This document shows, piece by piece, positions 11,721-27,068 of a stretch of 35,132 bases of DNA. Within the stretch, counting starts at the first letter, position 1. Each line of letters begins with the position of its first letter. Where the stretch lies: positions 1 through 35,132 of the forward strand of contig JAFGAK010000338.1 in assembly GCA_016933745.1 (NCBI GenBank). Direction: 5' to 3'. The stretch is from Bacteroidales bacterium (GTDB lineage: Bacteria; Bacteroidota; Bacteroidia; Bacteroidales; UBA12170). The translations under genes and the position numbers were made by a program. The notes beneath the pieces were generated by a model that ran no database searches, had not been told where the DNA came from, and saw nothing but the letters and a program-made list of their open reading frames with translations.

Positions 11721-12183
11721 TTGTTTCTTTTTTTGGTTTCCGGTAAATAAGATTAATTTCTTGAACGGTTTCTTGTTTCGAATCAATATAAAATCGTGCC
11801 ATATTAAACCAAGGCGGTTTAAAACGCATCAAAGCATTATTCGAAAATCCAAACGGTTCGGCGGGAATTCTGAATCTTTTCGTATCCAAGCTATCATTCT
11901 GATTTAAATCTTGAAAAAGGGCGACTGCATACCAACCTTCCGTCAAATTTGCAAATTCAATTGTATGGATATCAGCTGTAATAGGAATTGTTTTCACTAA
12001 AGAATTTCCAGGATTTGAAAAGTTAGCAAAGTAAACAGAATCCTTGCATAAGGACACAAACAACTCCCCTTCAATCAATTGTATATTTGAAACAGTCAAC
12101 TTTAACTTGCCTTGCTGAGCATTGGCTTGAATAAATATCGACCATGTTAAAAGCGAAACCAGAAGAATTCTAATTTGTTTCAT
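11710..12183 (-). CDS. DUF2141-like secreted protein (likely start MKQIRILLV at 12183)
   Basis: Signal peptide; LKLTVSNIQLIEGELFVSLCKDSVYFA...GWYAVALFQDLNQNDSLDTKRFRIPAEPFGFSNNA pattern typical of DUF2141. Confidence 0.8.
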   Translation of the reverse strand: MKQIRILLVSLLTWSIFIQANAQQGKLKLTVSNIQLIEGELFVSLCKDSVYFANFSNPGNSLVKTIPITADIHTIEFANLTEGWYAVALFQDLNQNDSLDTKRFRIPAEPFGFSNNALMRFKPPWFNMARFYIDSKQETVQEINLIYRKPKKETSEK

Positions 12184-12922
12184 TTTCCAGATCTCCTTGT
12201 TCAAAATTACTCAAAAACGGCAATGCAAGCTCTAAAACATCTACTGCTTTTTTCCGATTGTCGTGAAATAAGAGTATTTCACCACCTTTGATAGTTGCTT
12301 TGATTCTCGCTGCAATTTCTTCTGCGCTTTTATTTTTTAGTGTATCGAAACTTCGGAAGGTCCAGCCAACGCTAAGTAAATTTGTTTTCGTTAAAGCTTT
12401 TTTCAGGTTCGGATTGGTGACGCCAAATGGTGGTCGAAAATATTTTACTTGTTGTTTACCAAGCTTACTTAATATTGAAGTTGTTTTTGTAATTTCTTCA
12501 TGCATTTCTTTTGCACAGAAAAAATCGAACCAATGACTGTGCATAAACGAGTGATTGCCCAGCGAATGACCACGTTTAACGATTTCCTTCACTAATTCGG
12601 GGTATTTCTCAGCTTTTTCTCCTATGAGAAAAAAAATGGCTTTCACCTGATTTTTATCTAAAATATCTAAAACTTGCGGTGTTATTTTGGGATCGGGCCC
12701 GTCATCAAAAGTTAGCAAAACAGCCTGCTTATTTTTGAGTTCATTAATGGATTTGAAATAGAAATTGCGTTGAATATGCATGGAGCCATCAATTACCAGC
12801 AATAAAAAAGCAGCTAACAAAACAATAAGAAACCAAATCGAAATAATATCAAACCAAAAAAGAGGAATTTGAATTCCTTGGATAAGAATAAAAACTGGAA
12901 ATACTGTATTAAATTTTAGCAT
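12170..12922 (-). CDS. Membrane-anchored polysaccharide deacetylase (NodB/CE4) family protein
   Basis: N-terminal hydrophobic segments; TFDDGPDP, NHSFMHSHW and RPPFG CE4 motifs. Confidence 0.87.
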   Translation of the reverse strand: MLKFNTVFPVFILIQGIQIPLFWFDIISIWFLIVLLAAFLLLVIDGSMHIQRNFYFKSINELKNKQAVLLTFDDGPDPKITPQVLDILDKNQVKAIFFLIGEKAEKYPELVKEIVKRGHSLGNHSFMHSHWFDFFCAKEMHEEITKTTSILSKLGKQQVKYFRPPFGVTNPNLKKALTKTNLLSVGWTFRSFDTLKNKSAEEIAARIKATIKGGEILLFHDNRKKAVDVLELALPFLSNFEQGDLENETN

Positions 12923-13980
12923 TTGGAAAATAAGATAAAACTATGTTCCTCTTCTTGAAATTGATTATATAAAAGTATCGTATTCAATTGTTTAGGCTTT
13001 CCTTGACTGTAAAGAATTACATCCGGCACTTCTTGTTTCTGGAGTATTTGAGCCGCAATCCAGCTCCCAAAGGCAGATGCAGTATAATATTCTCCACATA
13101 AATGCTTGAAATACGCAACACTTGCATGTGGGAATAGTTTATCGGTAAAAGCATTGTACACATCCGTTTCTTCCTGAATACCATTGTATCCAATCAAAAC
13201 CAAATCAATCTCATCAACAGAAAGCTGATTTTTGGCTAAGAAGTCATTTGCTTTTGGAACTATTTCAGAAGTAGATTCTGGTTTGAAAAACATTTTCAAA
13301 TTAATTAGCTTGGCATAAGAATTTCGCTTTCGCTCTTTTTCTAACACGAAGAAACTCGCACCTTGTCCGGCAATAGTTCCATTTTCGGTGGTATTTTTAA
13401 GGTCTAAGTTTGAATAGCCTACGGGTTGAAAATGGCCAACAGAACGTAATAATTGGATATGGTTATCCGTCATTTCATCAAAACCTCCAACAAGTGCATT
13501 TTCAATTTCTCCGTCGTGCATCATCATGAATGCATCGTGCAAAGCAGTTTCAAAAGAAAAGCCTCTATGCACATAGGTCATATTGTAATTGTGGCAACCC
13601 AAACCAATGGCGATTGCTCCACCAACTGTATTGTGTGTTGATTGGATAAAACTGGTTGGGGTTAATAATGTTTCCTGATTATCGATCATGGAAAGGAGAA
13701 ACTTTTCCGTATCCACAGCACAACCCAAACCAGTGCCGGTTAAGATTGCATCCGGCATTTCTAATTCGCTATCCTCCAAACTAATTCGGGCAGCTGTAAT
13801 TCCATTCCGAATGATTTTACTCATTCTGCGCAACTCTTTTGGATTGATATAATCTTTGTAAGGAGGTTCTGCAATTGGCAAATAAGCTTCTTTATATTCG
13901 AGTATCGAAGTGAGAAAATTTGCATTATCTCTGGTTTCTTGCGGCGAAATTGCCCCGATGCCATTTATGTAGATTTCCAT
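12916..13980 (-). CDS. Ketosynthase-like chain length factor (catalytically degenerate KAS)
   Basis: KAS fold along the length, but Cys site reads VHRGFSFETALHDA, HGTGT site reads GYNGIQEETD and the KxxxGH site reads FKHLCGEYYT; directly follows a complete KS. Confidence 0.78.
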   Translation of the reverse strand: MEIYINGIGAISPQETRDNANFLTSILEYKEAYLPIAEPPYKDYINPKELRRMSKIIRNGITAARISLEDSELEMPDAILTGTGLGCAVDTEKFLLSMIDNQETLLTPTSFIQSTHNTVGGAIAIGLGCHNYNMTYVHRGFSFETALHDAFMMMHDGEIENALVGGFDEMTDNHIQLLRSVGHFQPVGYSNLDLKNTTENGTIAGQGASFFVLEKERKRNSYAKLINLKMFFKPESTSEIVPKANDFLAKNQLSVDEIDLVLIGYNGIQEETDVYNAFTDKLFPHASVAYFKHLCGEYYTASAFGSWIAAQILQKQEVPDVILYSQGKPKQLNTILLYNQFQEEEHSFILFSKC

Positions 13981-13981
13981 A

Positions 13982-15175
13982 TTAATCTTTTGAGAAAATT
14001 ACCGAGGAATTGTTGCCTCCAAACCCAAATGAATTGGATAAAATAGTTCGTATTTTTTTATCTTTTAAGAGCTTAGTTACGGGTTTAAAATTCAATTCTT
14101 TCATTTGAGTGGTAAAATTGAGATTTGGAAAAACAACCTGTTCTTGCATACTTAAAATTGAAAATACGGCTTCGATAGACCCAGCTGCGGCGAGTGTATG
14201 ACCGGTAAAAGGTTTTGTTGAACTTACCAATGGAATTTCATTTCCGAAAACAGCTTCAATGGCTAATCCTTCGGATAAATCATTATTCAAAGTAGCCGTT
14301 CCATGCGCATTGATATAATCGATTTCGCTTGGATTAAGATTCGCCATTTTTAAAGCTCTACTCATTGCCAAACTAGCGCCTTTTCCTTCGGGCGATGAAG
14401 CTGTTTGATGAAAAGCATCATTAGCATTAGCATAACCAGCTACATAGGCTAAAATGGGCTTTTCTTGCACTTCCGAAGCTCTTTCTAAAACCAAAAAAGC
14501 AGCGCCTTCACCAAGATTTAATCCTGCTCTAGTATCATCAAAAGAGCGACAAGGTTCTTTATCTAGGATCATCAAGCTATTGAATCCGTTCATTGTAAAT
14601 TTCGAAAGAGAATCAGTCCCTCCTACCAAAACTTTGTCGACTACCTTATGATTCAGCAATCTTGCACCCAACATGATGGAGTTTGTTGATGAGGAACAGG
14701 CTGTTGAAATACTAGTTAGATAATCTTTTATTCCCAAGAAATTGGCAATCTTTTCTGTACTATCTCCTGCATCGTGCGTCCCAATAAATTCCTCACTTGT
14801 GCCCTTCGAAATAAATTCTCCATAGAATTGCTCACTTTTACGCATGCCTGCTACCGTAGTTGCTGAAACGATCCCAATTTTAGCATTTTCATCCCTACCA
14901 ATTTTGGAGTGTTCAAAAGCTTCTTTAGCGGCAAGTAAGCCTAATAAGCTTGTTCTTGTCCATTGATCGTTTAATTCAAAACCAAGTTTCTGAGCCAATT
15001 CTTCATCCTTAAAATGAATTTCACCGGCAGGCAAATCCGCTTTATGAATCGTATCTAAAATCTGAATGGAGCTGATGCCCGATTTTCCACTCAATAAGGC
15101 ACGTAAATTCTCATCAGCATTTAATCCCAATGCAGAAACTACTCCCATTCCGGTAATCGCAATTCTATCAGCCAT
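13982..15175 (-). CDS. Beta-ketoacyl-ACP synthase (KAS I/II type), putative KS partner of adjacent CLF
   Basis: STACSSSTNSIM, INAHGTATLNND, SSTKPFTGHTLAAAG catalytic motifs. Confidence 0.9.
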   Translation of the reverse strand: MADRIAITGMGVVSALGLNADENLRALLSGKSGISSIQILDTIHKADLPAGEIHFKDEELAQKLGFELNDQWTRTSLLGLLAAKEAFEHSKIGRDENAKIGIVSATTVAGMRKSEQFYGEFISKGTSEEFIGTHDAGDSTEKIANFLGIKDYLTSISTACSSSTNSIMLGARLLNHKVVDKVLVGGTDSLSKFTMNGFNSLMILDKEPCRSFDDTRAGLNLGEGAAFLVLERASEVQEKPILAYVAGYANANDAFHQTASSPEGKGASLAMSRALKMANLNPSEIDYINAHGTATLNNDLSEGLAIEAVFGNEIPLVSSTKPFTGHTLAAAGSIEAVFSILSMQEQVVFPNLNFTTQMKELNFKPVTKLLKDKKIRTILSNSFGFGGNNSSVIFSKD

Positions 15176-15187
15176 TTAAAATAATTT

Positions 15188-15439
15188 TTATTGGTGTGCT
15201 TGAATATACTCGGCCATTGATTTTACGGAGAAAAAGATTGTTTTTCCGTCTTTAGGATTTTCTATTTTGATTCCGTAATTTTTTTCAAGAAGCACAATGA
15301 GCTCTAAAGCATCAATTGAATCGAGTCCTAATCCATCTCCAAATAAAGCTTCGTTCTCATCAATATCATCCGGCTCCATATCTTCTAGGTTTAAAGCTTC
15401 GATGATTTCTTCTTTTAAGTCTTGAATTAATTTATCCAT
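15188..15439 (-). CDS. Acyl carrier protein
   Basis: 83 aa, acidic; GLGLDSIDALELIVLLEKNYGI phosphopantetheine site. Confidence 0.92.
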   Translation of the reverse strand: MDKLIQDLKEEIIEALNLEDMEPDDIDENEALFGDGLGLDSIDALELIVLLEKNYGIKIENPKDGKTIFFSVKSMAEYIQAHQ

Positions 15440-16067
15440 TAGTTTCTTTTTTATAAGTGGTACAAATATTTTTTAAATTATTTTGTGTAAAACCTTGTTT
15501 TTCAGTTCTTTCTAAAAGCATTAAAAATGATTCATAATCGTCGTCTTTTACTTCGACATAGCCAAGTAAACATGCATCTAATTTATGATTTTCGAACAAA
15601 TTATATGCGTAATTCCAAAGAAAATCGATGTCCATTTTTTGCGAAATAAACAATGCATTTTCGCCTTTAAAACCGTGTCTAATGCAAATTTCCCCGGTCA
15701 TAATATTAGGCAGTGTATACACAAAATTTGCTGGGCTCGGAAAATACGATGTTTTATCGCTGAGCGTACTTTGGTGCTTTGAATCCATTAAATAAGTAGA
15801 TGAAGCATTTCCAATAATCAAACCTATTTTTTCCGAAGCATATTTACTTGTTAAGGGTTGGTCTTTTAAAATTACTTCTGCTGATAAAAAACCCAACTTA
15901 CTCAAGTAATCCATTTTAAAATATTTTGGATAATCAAGTCCTAAGTCTTTATAGATGCCTTTAAATACTTTTGCATAATTCAAGCTCTTTTCAAATTCCA
16001 GTTGTTTTTGAAAATCGACCAAAAGCTGATTTTTGCTTAAATAGATATGTTGACTACATTTGAACAT
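15432..16067 (-). CDS. Half-size thiolase-fold (KAS N-terminal-half-like) protein without catalytic Cys
   Basis: EKIGLIIGNASSTYLMDSKHQ...PSPANFVYTLPNIMTGEICIRHGFKGENALFISQ..LDACLLGYVEV resembles the N-terminal half of KAS proteins; no C-terminal His motifs. Confidence 0.7.
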   Translation of the reverse strand: MFKCSQHIYLSKNQLLVDFQKQLEFEKSLNYAKVFKGIYKDLGLDYPKYFKMDYLSKLGFLSAEVILKDQPLTSKYASEKIGLIIGNASSTYLMDSKHQSTLSDKTSYFPSPANFVYTLPNIMTGEICIRHGFKGENALFISQKMDIDFLWNYAYNLFENHKLDACLLGYVEVKDDDYESFLMLLERTEKQGFTQNNLKNICTTYKKETNG

Positions 16068-17220
16068 CGTCTATCTCGTTTTTAAAAAGTATTGCTGCAT
16101 TTGCACCGCCAAAACCGGATGCTGTTTTTAGCAAAGTATTTATTTCTAATGATTTAGATTCTTTGGTTATTTTTAAGTCAACCGAAACACCATGCTTAGA
16201 ATACCCAAGTGTTTTAATGGATTTATTCTGCTTCATTGCTTCGATTGATGCCAACGATTCGATTAATCCTGCAGCTCCGAGTGTATGACCCCAGTAGCCT
16301 TTTATGCTATTCACTTGTGCATTTTGTACACCAGCTAGCTGAAAAGCTTTGCTTTCCATTTCGTCGTTATAATTTGTAGCCGTTCCGTGAGCGCTAATAA
16401 AATCGACTTGATTTGCAGGGATTTCTGCTTCATTAAGCGCCGAATTTATAGCGAGGTACAATCCATCGCCAGTGCGTGAAGGACCTGAAATGTGGTTTGC
16501 ATCGTTGCTAATACCCGAACCTATGATATGCACTTTGGAAGTGATTGGCAATTCGGAAAGCAAGCAAGACCCAACAGCTTCGCCCAAATTGAGACCAATT
16601 CGCTCGCTATCAAATGGTTTACACATTTCCGCATCAAGCGATTGAAACGACTGAAACCCCGAAACAACAAATTCCGATAAGATATCGGCTCCTGCCACAA
16701 TAACGTTTTTGTATATTCCAGATTGAATCATTCGATATCCTATGGAAAGTGCTTCAACGCCTGAAATACAAGCATTTGAAATAACTTGAACAGGATTTGC
16801 TAAACCAAAAAAGGCTTGAATTACTTCAGCTGATTTCCATAAAAAAACACGGTCTTTTTCCCAATTTCCTTTTTCTTTTTCGTCCAACAAATTGATATTT
16901 CCTTTGGTTGATGATAGAATTAGCAAGGTATCTTTTGTTTGAAAATCAATTTTACATTCGATAAGTGTTTTTTGAATTGATAATAAAAGCAATTGTTCAA
17001 AAAACGGAAATTCAATTTTATTTGTTGGAAAAAGTGATTTGAATTCAGCTTGAAAACGAGCCACATCAATTTTAGAAGCAAAAAAAGTGTCGGGGTAAAG
17101 ATTCGGATCTGATATAGCACAACTTCCACTTTCTCCGGCATAGAGTTTTTTCATGTTCTCCTCCATGCCAAAGCCTAGTGAACTAATTAAATACGAACCG
17201 TTTACAAAAACCTTATTCAT
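16054..17220 (-). CDS. Beta-ketoacyl-ACP synthase (KAS I/II type)
   Basis: SNACISGVEALSIG, ISAHGTATNYND, NSIKGYWGHTLGAAG motifs. Confidence 0.9.
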   Translation of the reverse strand: MNKVFVNGSYLISSLGFGMEENMKKLYAGESGSCAISDPNLYPDTFFASKIDVARFQAEFKSLFPTNKIEFPFFEQLLLLSIQKTLIECKIDFQTKDTLLILSSTKGNINLLDEKEKGNWEKDRVFLWKSAEVIQAFFGLANPVQVISNACISGVEALSIGYRMIQSGIYKNVIVAGADILSEFVVSGFQSFQSLDAEMCKPFDSERIGLNLGEAVGSCLLSELPITSKVHIIGSGISNDANHISGPSRTGDGLYLAINSALNEAEIPANQVDFISAHGTATNYNDEMESKAFQLAGVQNAQVNSIKGYWGHTLGAAGLIESLASIEAMKQNKSIKTLGYSKHGVSVDLKITKESKSLEINTLLKTASGFGGANAAILFKNEIDDVQM

Positions 17221-17227
17221 CGTTTAT

Positions 17228-17647
17228 TTAAAATCCGTTTTTCGTTTTCCAATCAAGCATAAAATCAGGAGTATTTAAAGATAGCTCCCTTGTATTCAGA
17301 AATAAAAACACCTGAATTGTTCGTGCTGTTGCAATAATTTCGTTATTTGATTTGCGACTGATAACATAATCAAAAATAAGTTTAGCCGCTGGACTGTCCA
17401 CATAAGTTGCTTCAACAACAGCTATATCGCCATAGCGCAATTGTCTTTTATAATCTATATCCACTTTTACAATTGGCGTGGCATATCCTGCATTTTCCAC
17501 ATCGCAATAGCCAATAGCATAATCGTTTCCAAAGGCTTCTCTAGCCTCTTCGAGATATTTTACATAATGGCCATGCCAAACAATTCGAAGCGAATCAACT
17601 TCATTGAATCGGACTGCAACTTCTTTAGAAACACAAAGTTTTTTCAT
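17228..17647 (-). CDS. Acyl-CoA/ACP thioesterase, 4HBT hotdog family
   Basis: VRFNEVDSLRIVWHGHYVKYLEEAREAFG signature, hotdog length. Confidence 0.85.
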   Translation of the reverse strand: MKKLCVSKEVAVRFNEVDSLRIVWHGHYVKYLEEAREAFGNDYAIGYCDVENAGYATPIVKVDIDYKRQLRYGDIAVVEATYVDSPAAKLIFDYVISRKSNNEIIATARTIQVFLFLNTRELSLNTPDFMLDWKTKNGF

Positions 17648-17650
17648 TTT

Positions 17651-18652
17651 TTATTTAATTAAGTTGCGAAGATCTTCATACACTTTCTTTTCTCTATCTG
17701 CAATCACCAGAAGCATATTAGCTACACCTTGATACGGATCATTAATTTTAGTTCGCGCTTTGACAATTCGAGCTGTATCAACTGCAAATTCTCGCCACAA
17801 ATCGCCAATGGCAGTCATTTCCAATGCTAAATCGTGCAATTTAGGCATCTTTAAAATATCCGAAGCTTCTTGTAAAAAAGCAGCAAACATGAATCGAAAT
17901 CCTGCTCCACCGGTTCCTATTTCTTCTTGAGATCGCACAATCTGGCCCAAGTATTGAGCAGCTTTTCGATCGCCTAATTTGTTTGGATATTTCCGAACTT
18001 GAGAAGCCAAATAACGAATTCCTTTTACGCCAAACAAAGGGATAGGAATTTTGAGCATGTCTTTGGCTGTTTTTTTAATTCCTTCGACAATGGCTTTTTC
18101 TAAATTAATTTGTTGCGGAATTTTTTCTGCCCAATACATATGCCCTTTTGGAGCAAAAACTCCTTTCGCATATCGCACTCGTTGTAATTCTTTGTATGTC
18201 AGAGTAGTATAAGTTTCCATGATCGGATCACTAATCAAGTAATTCCCATCCTTTTTGCCATAAACAACCAAGTTATGAGCATTAAAATGAAAACGATAAG
18301 GTTTAGGGAAATACGTTAAATGGTACACTCCTACCAACATTCCAACCGGAATTCCTTGTTCTAATTTTTCATCCAAAGCATCCATTGCTTCTTTAGGATC
18401 AGAAAACCTTTTGCTTTTTATTTTGAAACCAATCCTTTTAGCCGCTCGCTTAAAAATAACGCCAGGAAGCGGACGAAAGGTAGTAACAGGAATATGATTT
18501 ACTTTTAGAAACGGCAGATAAGAAAAAAACAATCCGGATCCGATACCAAAAATCATTGGTTCAGATAAATTAATATTGTAGTGCTTGAGTAAGTTTGATG
18601 TTACTCCGTTTTCGCAATGAGCCGATTGAGCATGTTTGAAATCAATATCCAT
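17651..18652 (-). CDS. BtrH N-terminal-domain-like Cys acyltransferase/peptidase-fold protein
   Basis: AHCENGVTSNLLKHYN at N-terminus, FHFNAHNLVVYGKKDGNYLISDP; consistent with a Cys-His-Asp papain-like triad as in BtrH/C39-C45-like enzymes. Confidence 0.72.
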   Translation of the reverse strand: MDIDFKHAQSAHCENGVTSNLLKHYNINLSEPMIFGIGSGLFFSYLPFLKVNHIPVTTFRPLPGVIFKRAAKRIGFKIKSKRFSDPKEAMDALDEKLEQGIPVGMLVGVYHLTYFPKPYRFHFNAHNLVVYGKKDGNYLISDPIMETYTTLTYKELQRVRYAKGVFAPKGHMYWAEKIPQQINLEKAIVEGIKKTAKDMLKIPIPLFGVKGIRYLASQVRKYPNKLGDRKAAQYLGQIVRSQEEIGTGGAGFRFMFAAFLQEASDILKMPKLHDLALEMTAIGDLWREFAVDTARIVKARTKINDPYQGVANMLLVIADREKKVYEDLRNLIK

Positions 18653-19057
18653 TTAGATAAGTTCTTTGTTTTTTAGTTGTCCGAGTTCAATGTCAAAAGT
18701 TTCAGCGTATTTTATAAGAATGCTATCGGGAAGCTTATCAAAAACTTTCATTTTGCAGTGTTTTTTTACAGTCCAGCGCCATAAATTAACGTAGGAAGCT
18801 AATATTTTTGTATCCATTAAATTCTTTTCCATATAGAATGCAATGGGACTAAGTTCTCCCGAAATTACTTTTGCTTTGATATTTTCAATACGTTCATTCA
18901 CAGCATCCCACGCATCTTGCATTACCACATTTTTAGGATCCCAACCAACGCTCCGAACAGTCGTATATTTCCCATTCTCATCAAGCGCATAACAAGGTTC
19001 TTTAAATTTGCCTTCCAACATGTTTGCATTGTCTTGCGGAACTTGTTCTATCTTCAT
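18653..19057 (-). CDS. Conserved protein of unknown function in the pigment operon
   Basis: 134-aa ORF packed between neighbours with 0-2 nt gaps; no family recognised. Confidence 0.7.
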   Translation of the reverse strand: MKIEQVPQDNANMLEGKFKEPCYALDENGKYTTVRSVGWDPKNVVMQDAWDAVNERIENIKAKVISGELSPIAFYMEKNLMDTKILASYVNLWRWTVKKHCKMKVFDKLPDSILIKYAETFDIELGQLKNKELI

Positions 19058-19059
19058 TT

Positions 19060-19494
19060 TTACTGATTCTCTCCCAAAGGATTAATAAATATTTTAAATT
19101 CCCCGTGTGCAATTTTTGTATTTTCAATAAACACTTCTGCAAGTGCCAAAGTTGCATTTAAAACTTCATATTGAACGCTAACCTTCGTTGTGATTGCTTG
19201 ATTTATTTTAGGTAATCTAACTATGCTCAAATTTTTAATTGCACCAATAAATCCCAAAGGAACTTTCTCCTTGCTTTGAACTTTGAAATAACCAACTCCT
19301 AAAGCTGCTGTTTGTGCCATATTTTCAATTAAACCAGATTCGTTAAAATATCCATTTGTAATGAACAAATTAGTCGACAAAGGTATAAAATGAGAAATAA
19401 ATTCGTTTTTTGTGCAACCAGAAAGCGAATCAACCATCACCATTGGCTGTCGCTGTGGAATATACTTTTCTATTTCAAACGGATCTACAAGCAT
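19060..19494 (-). CDS. 3-hydroxyacyl-ACP dehydratase-like hotdog protein (APE/flexirubin type)
   Basis: YIPQRQPMVMVDSL...NGYFNESGLIENMAQTAALGVGYF...VPLGFIGAIKNLSIVRLP. Confidence 0.78.
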   Translation of the reverse strand: MLVDPFEIEKYIPQRQPMVMVDSLSGCTKNEFISHFIPLSTNLFITNGYFNESGLIENMAQTAALGVGYFKVQSKEKVPLGFIGAIKNLSIVRLPKINQAITTKVSVQYEVLNATLALAEVFIENTKIAHGEFKIFINPLGENQ

Positions 19495-19833
19495 TTATTC
19501 AATTGTTATCTTACTCGTCTTTTTACCCCATTTATTGCAAGTAGCAGTTACTTCAAGCACGTCTCCTTTTTTCACATTTTCTAGTTTGTAGCGGAACAAA
19601 TCGCCTTTGGTATCTTTTTGTTTATCGTAATTTTCGTTTACTACTTCTTGATCGTTCAGTTTAACAACTACATTTTCGATAAAATGATCTGTAATATCTC
19701 CAACCGAATGCTGAATATTTACGTCAATTTCTTGTGATTTCAAATCGAATTTTAAAGTAACTTTTTTTGGTGGATTACTCATAGCAGCGAATGAAAACGC
19801 TAAAAGAACTAGAATTAAGCTTATTTTTTTCAT
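19495..19833 (-). CDS. Secreted small protein with desulfoferrodoxin/superoxide-reductase-like C-terminal pattern
   Basis: Signal peptide MKKISLILVLLAFSFAAMS; VNIQHSVGDITDHFIENVVVKL and KKGDVLEVTATCNKWGKKTSKITIE resemble SOR segments PHPNTTEHHIRYIEL and KKGKLYALSYCNIHGLWENEVTLE (recalled from memory). Confidence 0.6.
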   Translation of the reverse strand: MKKISLILVLLAFSFAAMSNPPKKVTLKFDLKSQEIDVNIQHSVGDITDHFIENVVVKLNDQEVVNENYDKQKDTKGDLFRYKLENVKKGDVLEVTATCNKWGKKTSKITIE

Positions 19834-19849
19834 TTTAACCTCCTTTAAT

Positions 19850-20029
19850 TTAATTCGTAAGTATGTAAATAATAATTAATAATACATGAATTGTTGCAAC
19901 TGAAAAGGTTGATATTCCCATTAGTTTATGATATTTAAATGGAATTTGAATTTGTCGCATTCCTACCAACATGGTAAGAAATAACATGCAATACGTTATA
20001 ATTCCGAAAATCAATCCAAGCCAATACAT
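19850..20029 (-). CDS. Small membrane protein, 59 aa, two predicted TM helices, HX13H in second helix (absent from ORF track)
   Basis: Manual translation: MYWLGLIFGIITYCMLFLTMLVGMRQIQIPFKYHKLMGISTFSVATIHVLLIIIYILTN*; starts 2 nt after the darB stop and fills the darB-112aa gap. Confidence 0.7.
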   Translation of the reverse strand: MYWLGLIFGIITYCMLFLTMLVGMRQIQIPFKYHKLMGISTFSVATIHVLLIIIYILTN

Positions 20030-20031
20030 AA

Positions 20032-21168
20032 TTAAACCACGGTTAGCATGCTGTAAGCATAAGAAAAGCGGGCTGATTCAGGAACCATCAAAAAGATCTT
20101 TTCGCCTTTTTTCAGTTTTCCTGAGTAAAACAGCTCTTCCAACATTAAATAGATCGACCCTGCTCCCACATTTCCAACTTTTACCAAATTCGTAAACCAT
20201 TTTTCCTGTGGAATTTCAATGTTTGTCCGTTTGGTTTCTTCAGCAATCCGGCTTCTGAAATACTCCGATGATAGATGCGGTAGGAAATAATCAAAATCAT
20301 TTGGTCCAAATTTCCGTTGCTTCATAATTTCCAATAAAAACTCATTTCCTTTCTGAACAATATTTTCGCCCAGTATTTTAACATCTTGTTTTAATGAGAA
20401 AATTGATTTTTCAGCTTGTTCATTTGCACTTAAATCACGCCAAGGAATTGTATTTCCATCGCTTAGCTTCTCAGTTCCTGCATACATGCACGTTTTTAAT
20501 TCGTTTGAATACGACCTAAAATCGATCCATTCTATTTTGAGCGATAATCCTTCTTTGTTAGGTTTATTTTGTAGCAGTGCTGCACCTGCGCCATCGGATA
20601 ACATCCATCTTAAGAAATCTTTTTCAAAACCAACAATTGGATTTTTCTCTAATTCGATTAGACGGTCAGACTCTTTTTCGAAATTGGAAGCATGCATCCA
20701 ACTCGATAATTTCTCGGAACCGGTACAAACGGCATTTTGAGAATTTCCGGATAAAACGGATAAATAACCATATTTCAATGCTTGCATTCCTGCATTGCAA
20801 GATCCTGAAGCAGATAAAATCTCTATTGGCTTGATTCCTAATTCGCCTTGGACCATACTGATGTGCGATGGCACTAATTGGTCGGGAGAAGTTGTTCCTC
20901 CGGTAAGCAACTCCATATCGCTTAAAGAAAATTTTTCGCTTTCCAAGCCACGAACGGCTTCTGCAGTTAAAGCTGCATTGGAGTGCGTGCTATTTCCTTG
21001 TTTATCAAGTGCATAATAACGTGTATGTATTTTATTACTTCGCAAAATTAGGCCTTTAGATTTGGATGCAACACCACCAATGTATCCAAGGTAGTCTTCC
21101 ATTTCGTTGTTAGAAACGGGTTGATTTGGTAAAAATTTAGATAATGCAGTTATGTATACGTTATTCAC
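20032..21168 (-). CDS. darB: DarB-like ketosynthase (KAS III type), dialkylresorcinol biosynthesis
   Basis: KAS III fold with SASGSCNAGMQALKYG (Cys), FLPHLSSEYF (His), VGNVGAGSIYLMLEEL (Asn); adjacent to DarA-like gene. Confidence 0.82.
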   Translation of the reverse strand: MNNVYITALSKFLPNQPVSNNEMEDYLGYIGGVASKSKGLILRSNKIHTRYYALDKQGNSTHSNAALTAEAVRGLESEKFSLSDMELLTGGTTSPDQLVPSHISMVQGELGIKPIEILSASGSCNAGMQALKYGYLSVLSGNSQNAVCTGSEKLSSWMHASNFEKESDRLIELEKNPIVGFEKDFLRWMLSDGAGAALLQNKPNKEGLSLKIEWIDFRSYSNELKTCMYAGTEKLSDGNTIPWRDLSANEQAEKSIFSLKQDVKILGENIVQKGNEFLLEIMKQRKFGPNDFDYFLPHLSSEYFRSRIAEETKRTNIEIPQEKWFTNLVKVGNVGAGSIYLMLEELFYSGKLKKGEKIFLMVPESARFSYAYSMLTVV

Positions 21169-21292
21169 AATCGTTAAGTGTTAATTAATGGATGTACAAA
21201 TATATTAATTTGTCGCAACTAGCTTGCATTCTTGGCATCTACTTATTTGAGTTTTATCAACAGCTATCGCGATAATAAATTCCAAAATATTG

Positions 21293-22210
21293 CTAATCAA
21301 GTCCTTGAAAATGACGAATATTTTTCCTGATTTTTCTCGCATTTATCGGATAAAATAAATAGAACAAAAGCATGGCTATGGTTGAAACAAAATAAATCAT
21401 AAAGAGTAGATAATACTTGAATAGTTTCAATCTAAATGCCCGATTTGGATTGGAAGGCCCTCCTTTTTTTAGCACAAATTTTGCCCAAATTTGGAAAATA
21501 CGTTTGGCTTTCTTCTCCATACTCATCATATGCGGCAAAACATGAACGCTTCCTGCTTTCACCATTTCCGTTTGAACTTGGCTTAGCTGATTTGATCGCA
21601 CATGTTTTTCTAATAGTTCGCCGTAATTTGCACTGCTTTTTATATCTTCATCAGAGACTCCTGGCTTTGGAAAAATGCCCAAATAGCGATCTTTTATGCC
21701 TCCCAGCATCCAATAAATAATTGTAAAGACACTGATTAGATTTTGTGTTTTATCGTATAATACAAGATGACCTAAATGTTTTGCGCCTGCTTTTTCGATA
21801 TGAAAATTTAATCGATCATAAGCCATGTACCACATATTGCGACAAGCATTGACTGAGAAAACTGCGGTGTCTTTGGCAATTTTCTTAAAATCTTCTGATT
21901 GAACAAAACTACTAATTGGTATGGATAGCGATAAATACCAAACTTGGTAACCAAGAATGATTAAATCGTATTTCTGAATTAACTCTTTCGGAATGGAATT
22001 GATTTTAACGCGTGATTCCATTACAGATTCAGGAAATGCATCGTAAAAACGAGCAGAAGTCCATGGAAATGCAAATTCCGGCTCTGTTTTAATAGTATGA
22101 TAGAAAAGTTGATATTCGTGCGGCTTCTTTTTAAAAGTTTCTAAAAAATTAGAAAGAATGTCAGTTAATTGTCCGCTTTGAGAATAATGCACGACCAAAA
22201 TTTTAAACAT
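21293..22210 (-). CDS. darA: DarA-like dialkylresorcinol condensing enzyme (flavodoxin-like N-terminus, C-terminal TM)
   Basis: KILVVHYSQSGQLTDILSNFL flavodoxin-like start; FAFPWTSARFYDAFPESV; C-terminal hydrophobic YYLLFMIYFVSTIAMLLFYLFYPI; adjacent to darB. Confidence 0.8.
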   Translation of the reverse strand: MFKILVVHYSQSGQLTDILSNFLETFKKKPHEYQLFYHTIKTEPEFAFPWTSARFYDAFPESVMESRVKINSIPKELIQKYDLIILGYQVWYLSLSIPISSFVQSEDFKKIAKDTAVFSVNACRNMWYMAYDRLNFHIEKAGAKHLGHLVLYDKTQNLISVFTIIYWMLGGIKDRYLGIFPKPGVSDEDIKSSANYGELLEKHVRSNQLSQVQTEMVKAGSVHVLPHMMSMEKKAKRIFQIWAKFVLKKGGPSNPNRAFRLKLFKYYLLFMIYFVSTIAMLLFYLFYPINARKIRKNIRHFQGLD

Positions 22211-22261
22211 ATCAAAAGCTTTCTTTGGTTAAAAATAAAGTTAATTGAGGATAAAGTTACA

Positions 22262-23146
22262 CTATTTTTTCTCTTCCCAAAAGTCATAAAAATTAAACCA
22301 CTGTGTTGGGTATTTTGCCACCCTATTTTGCAATAATTGAACATATTCGCTTGCAATGCTTTGCACAATTTCGGTTCGCTTTTTAATGGAACTTAATGCC
22401 GGATAAACTTTTGCCTCACTAGCATAAAAATGGTAGTGTTTTTTTGTTTCTTTGATAGCAAACACAAAACTTATTGGTTGATTGAATTTTGCAGCCATGT
22501 AAAAGGGGCCGTAAGGAAAACGGGCTTTTTTACCAAAGAATTCGATTGAAATAGATTTTGCATTACCTATAAATCGATCGCCATGAAGTACAACCAGTTC
22601 TTTCCTATCAAGTGCTTTTTGAATTTCAATTAAATGAGAAAGATCTTCGTTGATGGCGATAATGTTCATTTTTTTCTCGGCTTGCACACTGCTTAGCAAC
22701 TTCTTAATTTCTGCTCTTTCTGCTTCAAGCATTAAAACATTGACTTTTACTGAGAAGTTATCGAGCAATTCGCTTGCAATCTCCCAATTTCCCATATGAG
22801 CACCAATCAGAAAACCACCTTCCTTCATTCCTTCAATATTTTCGATGCCATCGTGCGTGTATGTAAAGCGCTTTCTATTTCCACTAAGAATGGCTATTTT
22901 ATCGACTAAAACCTGACCAAATAAGAAATTATTTTGGACGATCTTAAAAAAGGATTGAAAACGATTTGTTTTGCAAACTCGATTAAAGAAAAGATATTGA
23001 TGTTCTTTGTTACTAAATAAAACAAAATAAAAACTCACAAATCTTAGAAGACCGTAAGCAAAAACTAAAGGAAAATTTTGAATTAAGTATATGAAAATTG
23101 AGTAACCAAGCTTGTTTCCACGCGATTGGCCTTTCCACTTACTCAT
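22262..23146 (-). CDS. LpxL/HtrB-like lysophospholipid acyltransferase
   Basis: GAHMGNWEIASELL (HX4E), HGDRFIGNAKSISIEFFGKKARFPYGPFYMA. Confidence 0.87.
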   Translation of the reverse strand: MSKWKGQSRGNKLGYSIFIYLIQNFPLVFAYGLLRFVSFYFVLFSNKEHQYLFFNRVCKTNRFQSFFKIVQNNFLFGQVLVDKIAILSGNRKRFTYTHDGIENIEGMKEGGFLIGAHMGNWEIASELLDNFSVKVNVLMLEAERAEIKKLLSSVQAEKKMNIIAINEDLSHLIEIQKALDRKELVVLHGDRFIGNAKSISIEFFGKKARFPYGPFYMAAKFNQPISFVFAIKETKKHYHFYASEAKVYPALSSIKKRTEIVQSIASEYVQLLQNRVAKYPTQWFNFYDFWEEKK

Positions 23147-23150
23147 GATA

Positions 23151-23390
23151 TTAATTTAATTTGGCATGCAAGAAGTTATAAAATTCATCCAGTGTTTTTA
23201 CATCCATCATTTCTTCACCTTTAATCTTTAGGCCAAAAATATTTTCAACAACAACAACTATATCCACAAAGTCAAGACTGTCTATTCCAATTTCTTTCCA
23301 AGTAGCTGATGGAACAAGCAAGTCTTCTTCGATTTCAAATTCTTCAATTAAAAAATTGTTTACTTCTAGTGTAATTTCCGCTATATTCAT
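23151..23390 (-). CDS. Acyl carrier protein
   Basis: 79 aa; EIGIDSLDFVDIVVVVENIFGLKI phosphopantetheine site. Confidence 0.92.
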   Translation of the reverse strand: MNIAEITLEVNNFLIEEFEIEEDLLVPSATWKEIGIDSLDFVDIVVVVENIFGLKIKGEEMMDVKTLDEFYNFLHAKLN

Positions 23391-23470
23391 GTGGTACTAA
23401 TTAAGTTTTGCGAAGTTAGTATTTTCTGAAAAAAAGCGGTGCTATTTTATTGAAAAAATTGAAGAAAAAA

Positions 23471-23483
23471 GCACATATTGTGC
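23471..23483. repeat. Short palindrome GCACA-TAT-TGTGC in an intra-operon gap
   Basis: Inverted repeat in the 149-bp gap between the KS (stop 23540) and ACP (start 23390). Confidence 0.45.
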
Positions 23484-23539
23484 AACTCATTATAAATTTA
23501 TATAGAAGTAATCTGATTCTATTTTTTTTGAGAACCGAT

Positions 23540-24763
23540 TTATAATTCAAAGCGTTTAATAATTAAAGCCGAATTGGTTCCTCCAAATCCAAAAGAATTA
23601 GATAATATCCGATTGAGCTTTGCTTCTTTGGTTTGAGCTATAATATTTATTTTGGCTGAATGCTCATCGGGATTTTCTAGATTAATATTTGGGGCAATAA
23701 AATCGTTATGCATCATCAATAAAGAATAAATAATTTCACTTGCACCTCCCATCCACATTTCGTGCCCAGTCATTGATTTGGTGGAACTTACAGGAGTTTT
23801 ATCACCAAAAATACTATAAATTGCTTGGGCTTCATTGGCATCACCAATAGGTGTTGAAGTAGCATGCGCATTGATATAATCTATTTTTTCGGGAATATAA
23901 CCGCTATCTTTTAAAGCCATTTGAATTGCGCGCGATGGGCCATCGATATTTGGTTGTGATATATGAGCGCCATCTGAAGAAACACCATAGCCTACTACTT
24001 CGCCTAAAATAGTTGCGCCTCGCTTGATTGCTGTGCTTAAATCTTCCAAAACAAGAGTTGCTGCTCCTCCACTGGGAACCAACCCATCCCGATCTCTATC
24101 AAAGGGACGGCAAGCTTTGGTTGGATCGTTTTCTCTTTTTGAAAAGGCGCCTAAACCATCAAAACTACCCATTGAATACTTATTCAATTCTTGTGCGCCA
24201 CCACAAATAACACTGTTTTGCATACCATTCTTAATTAAGAAATAAGCCATTCCAACGGAATGAGAGCCACTGGCACAAGCACCTGCAATCGTAAAATTTA
24301 TTCCTCTTAACTTATAAATAACTGATAAATTCATGCTCACAGTTGAGTTCATCGATTGGAAAATTGAACCTGAACCCATACGTGAAGTATCTTTCTTATC
24401 TCTCAGTATATCAATACCTTCAATAACCGCTTTACTCGAGGAATCATTTCCAAATAGAATTCCAACTTCGTTGTTTGCAAAGTAATTTTCATCCATTCTA
24501 GCCATTTCAACGGCTTGCTGTGTACTCATGAATGCAAACGCTCCTTGCTCAGGTAGTCCAATGCGCATTCTTCGATCTAATTTGCCTTTTAACTCAGGCT
24601 CCTCTATAAAGCCTGTTAAACCAGATTGATAACCAAATTCTTTGCGTTCTGCATCAAAAACAATTCCTGATTTTCCAGCGATTAAAGAGTTTTTAACCTC
24701 TTCAATGGTTTTCCCCAATACACCATAAATTCCTACACCGGTAATAACTACTCTTCTCTTCAT
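23540..24763 (-). CDS. Beta-ketoacyl-ACP synthase (KAS II type)
   Basis: AGACASGSHSVGMA, INAHATSTPIGDANE, SSTKSMTGHEMWMGGA motifs. Confidence 0.92.
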   Translation of the reverse strand: MKRRVVITGVGIYGVLGKTIEEVKNSLIAGKSGIVFDAERKEFGYQSGLTGFIEEPELKGKLDRRMRIGLPEQGAFAFMSTQQAVEMARMDENYFANNEVGILFGNDSSSKAVIEGIDILRDKKDTSRMGSGSIFQSMNSTVSMNLSVIYKLRGINFTIAGACASGSHSVGMAYFLIKNGMQNSVICGGAQELNKYSMGSFDGLGAFSKRENDPTKACRPFDRDRDGLVPSGGAATLVLEDLSTAIKRGATILGEVVGYGVSSDGAHISQPNIDGPSRAIQMALKDSGYIPEKIDYINAHATSTPIGDANEAQAIYSIFGDKTPVSSTKSMTGHEMWMGGASEIIYSLLMMHNDFIAPNINLENPDEHSAKINIIAQTKEAKLNRILSNSFGFGGTNSALIIKRFEL

Positions 24764-24781
24764 TGATGATTGTTTATTGGT

Positions 24782-25519
24782 TTAAGTATATAATCCTCCA
24801 TTAACAGATATAACTTGTCCTGTAATGTAGCTCGCTTTTTCGGAGGATAAAAATGCAACCAAATGAGCCACATCTTCGGGATTTCCAAATTTTCCCATTG
24901 GGATTATTTTTTTATGTTCAATTTCGTCGATGTCTGCAGTCATATCGCTTTTAATAAATCCAGGTGCAATGGCATTAACTGTCACTTTTTTCCTTGCTAC
25001 TTCTTGCGCTAATGCTTTGGTAGCAGCAATCACACCTCCTTTACTAGCCGAATAATTTGTTTGACCGGGTAATCCTTTCAGACCTGATAAAGAAACGATA
25101 TTAATGATTCTTCCTGACTTATTAACAAGCATATCTTTTAATACGACTTGTGTTACATAATAAAATGAATTCAAGTTGGTATTGATTACTTCTTGCCAAT
25201 CTTCATTTTCCATCCAAATCAAAAGTGCATCTTTTCGAATTCCACTATTATTAACTAAAACCTGAATATATGAATCGGGATTTTTAGTTTGCCATTGAGT
25301 TAACGCTTCTTTTACTTCTTCTTGTTTGGAAACATCAAAAGGCATTAAAGTGGCTTCTTTCCCTGATTCTTCGATAAGGGATTTTGTGATTTCTGCTTCT
25401 TGGTTATTGGATTTATAATTGATTAGAACATGAAAATCCATCCTTGCCAATTCCAAACAAATTGCCCTACCAATTCCACGAGAACCTCCTGTTACTAATG
25501 CGTACTTTTTGTCAGACAT
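24782..25519 (-). CDS. 3-oxoacyl-ACP reductase, FabG-type SDR (likely start MSDKKYALVTGG at 25519)
   Basis: TGGSRGIGR, NNSGIRKD, NYSASKGG, VNAIAPGFIKSDM. Confidence 0.92.
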   Translation of the reverse strand: MSDKKYALVTGGSRGIGRAICLELARMDFHVLINYKSNNQEAEITKSLIEESGKEATLMPFDVSKQEEVKEALTQWQTKNPDSYIQVLVNNSGIRKDALLIWMENEDWQEVINTNLNSFYYVTQVVLKDMLVNKSGRIINIVSLSGLKGLPGQTNYSASKGGVIAATKALAQEVARKKVTVNAIAPGFIKSDMTADIDEIEHKKIIPMGKFGNPEDVAHLVAFLSSEKASYITGQVISVNGGLYT

Positions 25520-25523
25520 GAGT

Positions 25524-27068
25524 TTATTCGTCTTGAAGTTTGTTTTCAAATAAATAATCCTTCATTTTCTTCACTTCAGGATATTTTATGCTATCATCCA
25601 CAAATTTTGGAATGATTTCTCTCATTTCCAAAAAGAGTTTTTTGGTATATACGGAAAGTTTATCTGTAAACTCTAAATAATCAACTGCTTGCAAAATACT
25701 TATCATGTGAATTGAAAGTACTTCGTAAGAATTACGAATCACACGTGCGCACATAAGGGCAGCGTTGGTTCCCATACTAACAATATCTTGATTATCGTTA
25801 TTATTTGGTATACTATGGACATACATTGGGTTGGAAAGCGTTTGATTTTCAGCAACTGTTGAAGTGGCTGTAAACTGAACTCCTTGCATTCCGAGGTTTA
25901 ATCCCAATTTACCAAGGTTTACAAATGGTGGTAGAATATTGTTTAACTTATTATTCATCAAAAAGTTAAGCTGTCGCTCAATTAGCATCGAAAGTTTAGT
26001 TATGCCTATTTTCAGTTTATCCATTTCAAACGAAACATAATCGCCATGAAAATTTCCGCCATGAAAAACATTTCTTCTTTCCACATCGATAATCGGATTA
26101 TCGTTTACCGAATTCACTTCGTTAATCAATACTTTACAGGTATTATCAATGGTTTCTAGAATCGGCCCTAAAACTTGCGGAACACATCTTAGGGAATAAT
26201 ACTCTTGTACTTTTTCCAGAAAAACCTGTTGATTATTTCCATTACCATTGAAAAGCTTTTCTTCGCGACGTTTTAGCAACTGCGATCCTTCCAACATTTT
26301 GCGCATTAAAGAGGCAACTTCATTCTGTCCGGGATGTTTCTTTACGTTATTTAACGGAGCTGAAAAATGATCGTCGTAAGATTCAACAAGCTGATTTATC
26401 ATCGAAGAAGCATAGACCGACCATTTGTACAATTTACGTGCTCTTAACGAGTTAATAATGCCAATGCCAGTCATTACAGAGGTTCCATTGATTAAACCTA
26501 AACCTTCTCGGATATGAACTTCGATTGGTTTTAGATTTAATTCTGAAAAAATATCCGTCATTGGGCGAACAACTCCTTGATATTCTGCGTCTCCTTCGCC
26601 AATTAAGCCAAGTGCTAAATGAGATAATTGCACTAAATCGCCACTAGCCCCAACTCCACCGTGTTCAGGAATTAATGGATATATTTCTAGATTTATAAAG
26701 GATTCTAACTGAGTAATCACACTTGGATGAATTCCTGAATAGCCCAAACCCAATGTATTTAATCGGGCAAGCATCAACGCTCGCACATAGATGGAATCAA
26801 TAAATTCTCCCGATCCGGAAGAATGACTTCGAATTAGATTATATTGAAGTTGTCTGATTGCTTCATCGTCAATCTTGTATTGAGCCATTGGCCCAAATCC
26901 GGTCGTAATTCCATAAATAATTTTTCCTTTTGAAAATTCTTTAAGGAAATCGAAACTTTTTTCTACACGTGCGTATGTTTCGTCAGAAACTTTAACTTTT
27001 TGTTTGTTGAGTACAATTTGTTCAAAATCGTCGACAGTAAGATTTTGGTGTCCTATGCGTATTGCCAT
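25524..27068 (-). CDS. HAL/PAL/TAL family aromatic amino acid ammonia-lyase, probably tyrosine ammonia-lyase
   Basis: GGVGASGDLVQLSHLALG MIO motif; LIRSHSSGSG; high overall resemblance to Flavobacterium johnsoniae TAL as recalled; location in flexirubin/APE-type cluster. Confidence 0.9.
   Translation of the reverse strand: MAIRIGHQNLTVDDFEQIVLNKQKVKVSDETYARVEKSFDFLKEFSKGKIIYGITTGFGPMAQYKIDDEAIRQLQYNLIRSHSSGSGEFIDSIYVRALMLARLNTLGLGYSGIHPSVITQLESFINLEIYPLIPEHGGVGASGDLVQLSHLALGLIGEGDAEYQGVVRPMTDIFSELNLKPIEVHIREGLGLINGTSVMTGIGIINSLRARKLYKWSVYASSMINQLVESYDDHFSAPLNNVKKHPGQNEVASLMRKMLEGSQLLKRREEKLFNGNGNNQQVFLEKVQEYYSLRCVPQVLGPILETIDNTCKVLINEVNSVNDNPIIDVERRNVFHGGNFHGDYVSFEMDKLKIGITKLSMLIERQLNFLMNNKLNNILPPFVNLGKLGLNLGMQGVQFTATSTVAENQTLSNPMYVHSIPNNNDNQDIVSMGTNAALMCARVIRNSYEVLSIHMISILQAVDYLEFTDKLSVYTKKLFLEMREIIPKFVDDSIKYPEVKKMKDYLFENKLQDE

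Follow-up and report, generated by a model that had tools for sequence, protein, structure and literature searches.

A conserved 59-residue two-helix membrane protein paired with a superoxide reductase-like gene near Bacteroidales pigment genes, and its possible reading as half of a cytochrome b

Several described systems resemble parts of the locus reported here. In the N-terminal diheme core of cytochrome b (PF00033, bc1/b6f) the first helix of a hairpin carries GX13G and the second H[R/K]X12H, and the three cytochrome b proteins that we fetched as a yardstick read GX13G then HX13H, followed by GX13G with HX13H or HX14H. These cores resemble a repeated helix pair, and a living protein made of a single pair would make their origin by duplication testable. 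The Ferric_reduct family (PF01794) includes NOX, ferric reductases and MsrQ/YedZ, of which MsrQ serves a periplasmic partner. Superoxide reductases/desulfoferrodoxins (PF01880) are beta-sandwich proteins with an H...H...CNxxG motif, whose iron is held by four His and one Cys. The superoxide oxidase CybB (cytochrome b561) of E. coli is a minimal four-helix diheme protein that acts on superoxide and quinones (PMC11869295), and CytbX is a de novo minimal diheme four-helix membrane cytochrome with bis-His ligation (PMC10120048). In the LcoA-BcnA pair a cytochrome b561 and a secreted lipocalin partner limit lipid peroxidation in the envelope (PMC9113575), and aryl polyenes, located in the outer membrane, protect from oxidative stress (PMC8253772). 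No paper linking superoxide reductase with flexirubin in substance was found in the literature searched.

The window, that is the whole stretch of 35,132 nucleotides that was analysed, carries a pigment gene cluster with the following features around a small open reading frame.

12170..27068, minus strand: aryl-polyene/dialkylresorcinol (flexirubin-type) cluster, from an ammonia-lyase gene to a polysaccharide deacetylase-like gene; the same gene set is seen around homologs of the small gene
20032..21168, minus strand: darB, dialkylresorcinol ketosynthase (NF053539, E 4.6e-177), directly upstream of the small ORF
19853..20029, minus strand: coding part of the gene for a 59-aa two-helix membrane protein (stop at 19850-19852), with G9 and G23 in helix 1 and H34-K35 and H48 in helix 2
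19834..19852, minus strand: ribosome-binding region of p112 (AGGAGG) and stop codon of the small ORF
19498..19833, minus strand: p112, a secreted beta-sandwich protein of 112 aa in which H42, H50 and C99 are invariant, a putative distant relative of superoxide reductase/desulfoferrodoxin

The translation quoted for the small ORF in a preliminary description of this DNA agrees with the letters, although that description omitted the minus strand; the plus strand at 19850-20029 is interrupted by stops throughout. The ATG lies 2 nt past the darB stop (GTT TAA TT ATG), as had been reported, and 16 nt separate the stop of the small ORF from p112, which starts with a good AGGAGG ribosome site. In the two other DAR arrangements the small gene follows darB after 9-10 nt, and this retained short spacing is consistent with the coupled translation suggested earlier; the small ORF is probably translationally coupled. 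A spurious reading frame in an intergenic gap was considered as well, since in a congener the corresponding gap of 107 nt lacks the ORF. Its homologs occur in at least seven genera with invariant residues and a dN/dS of about 0.1, and purifying selection together with these residues rules out the spurious frame, the chance of which we hold to be next to nil. Pairwise dN/dS among 12 homologs of family f97 ranged from 0.03 to 0.21 with a median of 0.11, and one pair of homologs from another family gave 0.05. The small ORF is a real gene under purifying selection, and the synonymous-substitution bias in related genomes proposed earlier as its test is borne out; it is short enough for annotation cut-offs to skip.

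Searching 294 genomes of the order with the small protein gave credible homologs in nine other genomes. We dropped the matches at L011 and L012 as chance, since they overlap genes for S9-type peptidases. A profile search placed the small gene in 12 of 25 genomes of family f97, and a further homolog, adjoining p112, was found in genome G243. Class- and phylum-wide profile searches of sampled genomes added almost no further homologs, so that the family seems restricted to relatives at the level of the order (records named Bacteroidales). A plasmid search returned distant ketosynthase matches only. Two f97 homologs (L007:1474-1644 and L010:1498-1671) have a shorter C-terminus after H48 than the other members.

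The neighbour of the small gene is nearly constant. At all 19 intact loci with a readable neighbour (the window, L002/L015, L008/L019, L009, L003, L004, L103 and twelve f97 loci) it adjoins a gene for a secreted protein of 110-125 aa, mostly in the order small gene then p112, and in f97 as the SOR-like gene followed by the small gene; in G156 the two stand at the ends of separate contigs. In G283 the small gene is preceded by two tandem SOR-like genes (L130:10098-10886). The reverse situation, with p112 following darB directly and the small gene missing, occurs at L014 and in G098 (L096 / L140), a member of the same genus as the window, where DarB is 81% identical and the gap is the non-coding one of 107 nt; the small gene can have been lost, or never present, in this congener. 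Immediately upstream of the small gene and its neighbour p112 in G243 lies a gene for a multi-helix protein of 208 aa, b561-like by eye, several helices of which have a His close to their start (L134:8639-9471); the site is away from pigment clusters.

Within the p112 form H42, H50, C99 and G103 are invariant, and the Desulfoferrodox profile matches 10 of the 13 members of the p112 family. p112 itself reaches 15.1 bits against PF01880, below the cut-off of 22.2, and its p125-type relatives lie above it at 34-35 bits. The f97 form, too, matches above threshold (E 2e-8 to 3e-8), and it is retrieved by a profile built on p112-form sequences only. The AlphaFold2 model of p112 is an all-beta sandwich (pLDDT 82.8); superoxide reductases (4d7p, TM 0.63/0.72) and SoxZ are among its top structural matches, with generic Ig-like domains scoring about as high and no E-value below 0.001. 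Judged by sequence and model, p112 is a degenerate SOR-like protein with a putative metal site of His, His and Cys. It shares the H...H...CNxxG motif, the beta-sandwich and the fold matches with superoxide reductases, and differs from them in its sub-cut-off Pfam score and in its ligands. Two invariant His and the Cys are kept, and the last His ligand, that of CNxHG, is present in the f97 form and replaced in p112; as it lacks this fourth SOR His, p112 may not be a superoxide reductase. A p125-type SOR-like gene also heads a flexirubin-type cluster at a contig edge in G152 (L137:103-492), where any small gene would fall beyond the contig.

Among the 20 homologs of the small protein, H34, H48 and G23 never vary and position 9 is Gly in all but one; K or R directly follows H34 in every homolog listed. 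The His residues, the conservation of which in relatives had been set as a refutation test, thus passed it without exception. Thirteen residues separate H34 from H48, a spacing compared there with b-type cytochromes, but HX13H alone occurs in 425 of 7361 short ORFs (~6%) and is therefore uninformative; by itself it is weak evidence, and we rejected it as support. The same 14-residue step joins G9 to G23 in helix 1, and this GX13G pair, overlooked in the preliminary description, is the stronger signal. The combined pattern G-x13-G...H[KR]-x12-H is found in 10 of the 7361 short ORFs, nine of which belong to the small-protein family, and shuffling of the family's sequences produced it 4 times in 100,000. 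The arrangement looked for in a diheme protein, two invariant His 13-14 apart in one helix and a small-residue pair at the same spacing in the neighbouring helix, is accordingly present in 20/20 homologs for the His and in 19/20 for the glycines. With these glycines and the sub-threshold profile matches given below, the cytochrome idea as such has gained.

The description of a two-helix membrane protein agrees with AlphaFold2, which gives a confident hairpin for the small protein from three sequences, with helices at 2-23 and 31-58, both His in helix 2 and a mean pLDDT of 92.7 (the models here were based on 3-4 sequences). In every homolog the loop between the helices holds 3-6 Lys/Arg and no acidic residue, and the N- and C-terminal parts are free of basic residues; by the positive-inside rule the loop would be cytoplasmic and H48 would lie towards the periplasm. 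A match to Ferric_reduct covering the His helix was obtained for 10 of 11 members, with E-values up to 0.1 and 3e-4 at best, and for none of 10 shuffled decoys in which the His were kept fixed. The best member scored 21.3 bits against a curated cut-off of 28, and one shuffled decoy matched an unrelated transporter (membrane) family at 1.6e-4, which means that an isolated E-value in this range cannot be relied on; the matches are consistent with a b-type cytochrome and not decisive. No match was obtained with the Cytochrome_B profile PF00033 or with NCBIfam, Foldseek with the hairpin model came back empty, and a profile search of PDB sequences gave weak hits only, among them cytochrome b reductase 1, matched over a short stretch in the first helix (E 0.83).

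These observations could also be accommodated by a membrane subunit without heme, which would anchor p112 or another envelope protein or help it to fold, the His pair serving metal delivery or structure. Two-helix small proteins often serve as anchors, and the putative His2Cys site of p112 might require loading; besides, the heme, like the dimer, the direction of electron flow and the physiological role discussed below, is something that we infer. Conserved residue pairs with the spacing of cytochrome b in each of the two helices are difficult to account for unless two cofactors are stacked there, and we regard the heme-free subunit as improbable.

We lean, with modest confidence, towards a homodimeric diheme b cytochrome that would pass electrons between menaquinone and periplasmic p112 and would thereby contribute to redox protection of the envelope near the pigment. 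Each 59-aa chain would span the inner membrane as a hairpin of two helices, its termini in the periplasm and the loop rich in Lys/Arg in the cytoplasm, and a four-helix bundle would arise from two such chains. Each of the two stacked b hemes would be bound by one His per chain, always from helix 2, with H34 closer to the cytoplasm and H48 towards the periplasm, while G9 and G23 of helix 1 would leave space for the hemes, as do the glycines of cytochrome b, which we take to be heme-packing positions; no open paper on that glycine motif was found in the literature. Through the dimer, the menaquinone pool would exchange electrons with the putative His, His, Cys metal site of p112, and in flexirubin/aryl-polyene producers the pair would most likely clear superoxide or other radicals, or keep an envelope redox component reduced.

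As GX13G-HX13H occurs once in the small protein and twice in cytochrome b, a homodimer would restore the full set. The narrower proposal of a natural half cytochrome b, with a single GX13G-HX13H unit, two hemes across the two-fold axis and a quinone-linked pairing with an SOR-like protein, is put forward tentatively, at a little short of an even chance. It would differ from the cytochrome b core in being one 59-aa hairpin with a short loop, where the latter has two hairpins and further helices. If cytochrome b arose by duplication, a one-unit form of this kind would be expected, and the protein, should the proposal be true, would rank with the smallest diheme membrane cytochromes in nature; the open literature, of which our coverage is incomplete, yielded no description of a natural one-hairpin diheme cytochrome. 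The designed CytbX has the minimal diheme four-helix bundle and bis-His ligation proposed for the dimer, in a single chain. Relative to Ferric_reduct proteins the small protein is half as long and lacks an NAD(P)H or flavin domain. The closest organisational likeness is to LcoA-BcnA, likewise a two-gene module of a small membrane cytochrome (here a candidate one) and a secreted partner, sometimes uncoupled; there the partner is a lipocalin and here the SOR/SoxZ-like p112, and the cytochrome would be half the size.

The small protein might instead act on its own as a superoxide:quinone oxidoreductase like CybB, with p112 merely accessory. E. coli superoxide oxidase, as a minimal four-helix diheme protein (PMC11869295), has the size that a dimer of the small protein would have. 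CybB is nevertheless a single four-helix chain and the small protein one hairpin, to which no sequence relation was found, and the near-constant SOR-like neighbour favours a partner; we consider the solitary enzyme improbable.

The idea that the small gene is a general part of flexirubin/DAR operons was not supported: among 80 further darB loci in named genome records, only two (L015, L019) have it, and the congener has darB and p112 without it. The small gene is not a core flexirubin/DAR component. With p112 it lies in DAR clusters in the window, L138 and L139; in G027 (L132) the pair is found beside KS/ACP/AT genes, and in f97 (L129-L131) a few kilobases from ammonia-lyase/SDR/KS/ACP genes. 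An aryl-polyene ketosynthase is encoded by 10/10 carriers of the small gene, compared with 80/294 genomes overall (hypergeometric p ~1.4e-6), or by 10/11 carriers (p ~1.2e-5) when G243 is counted, which has the pair and lacks the ketosynthase. As the carriers are related and not independent, these p values are optimistic, and the count by genus is fairer (7/7 carrier genera, p ~1.5e-4). Physical linkage is not universal, since G140 and G156 carry the ketosynthase and the small gene on different contigs. If the cytochrome reading is true, small cytochrome and SOR-like protein would form an unrecognised redox module tied to aryl-polyene pigments.

The same linkage could mean that the pair tailors the pigment, the small protein exchanging electrons with p112 and p112 performing or supporting oxidation or reduction of the aryl polyene/dialkylresorcinol in the envelope, in place of detoxification. 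The pair does lie inside or ~5-10 kb from pigment genes in several arrangements, and a flexirubin-type cluster in G152 is headed by the SOR-like protein by itself. Most darB clusters nonetheless lack the pair, so the core pigment does not need it, and tailoring seems to us unlikely, though the most serious competitor to redox protection.

Other genes were noted in these neighbourhoods. Proteins that by eye look like B12-binding radical SAM enzymes are encoded in or beside pigment clusters at L139:2444-3799, L132:3525-4874 and L129:6676-8016; in f97 one radical SAM-like gene lies directly upstream of the pair of SOR-like and small genes, and none was seen in the window cluster. At L072 a second darB-like ketosynthase gene follows in tandem, ~92 nt past the darB stop.
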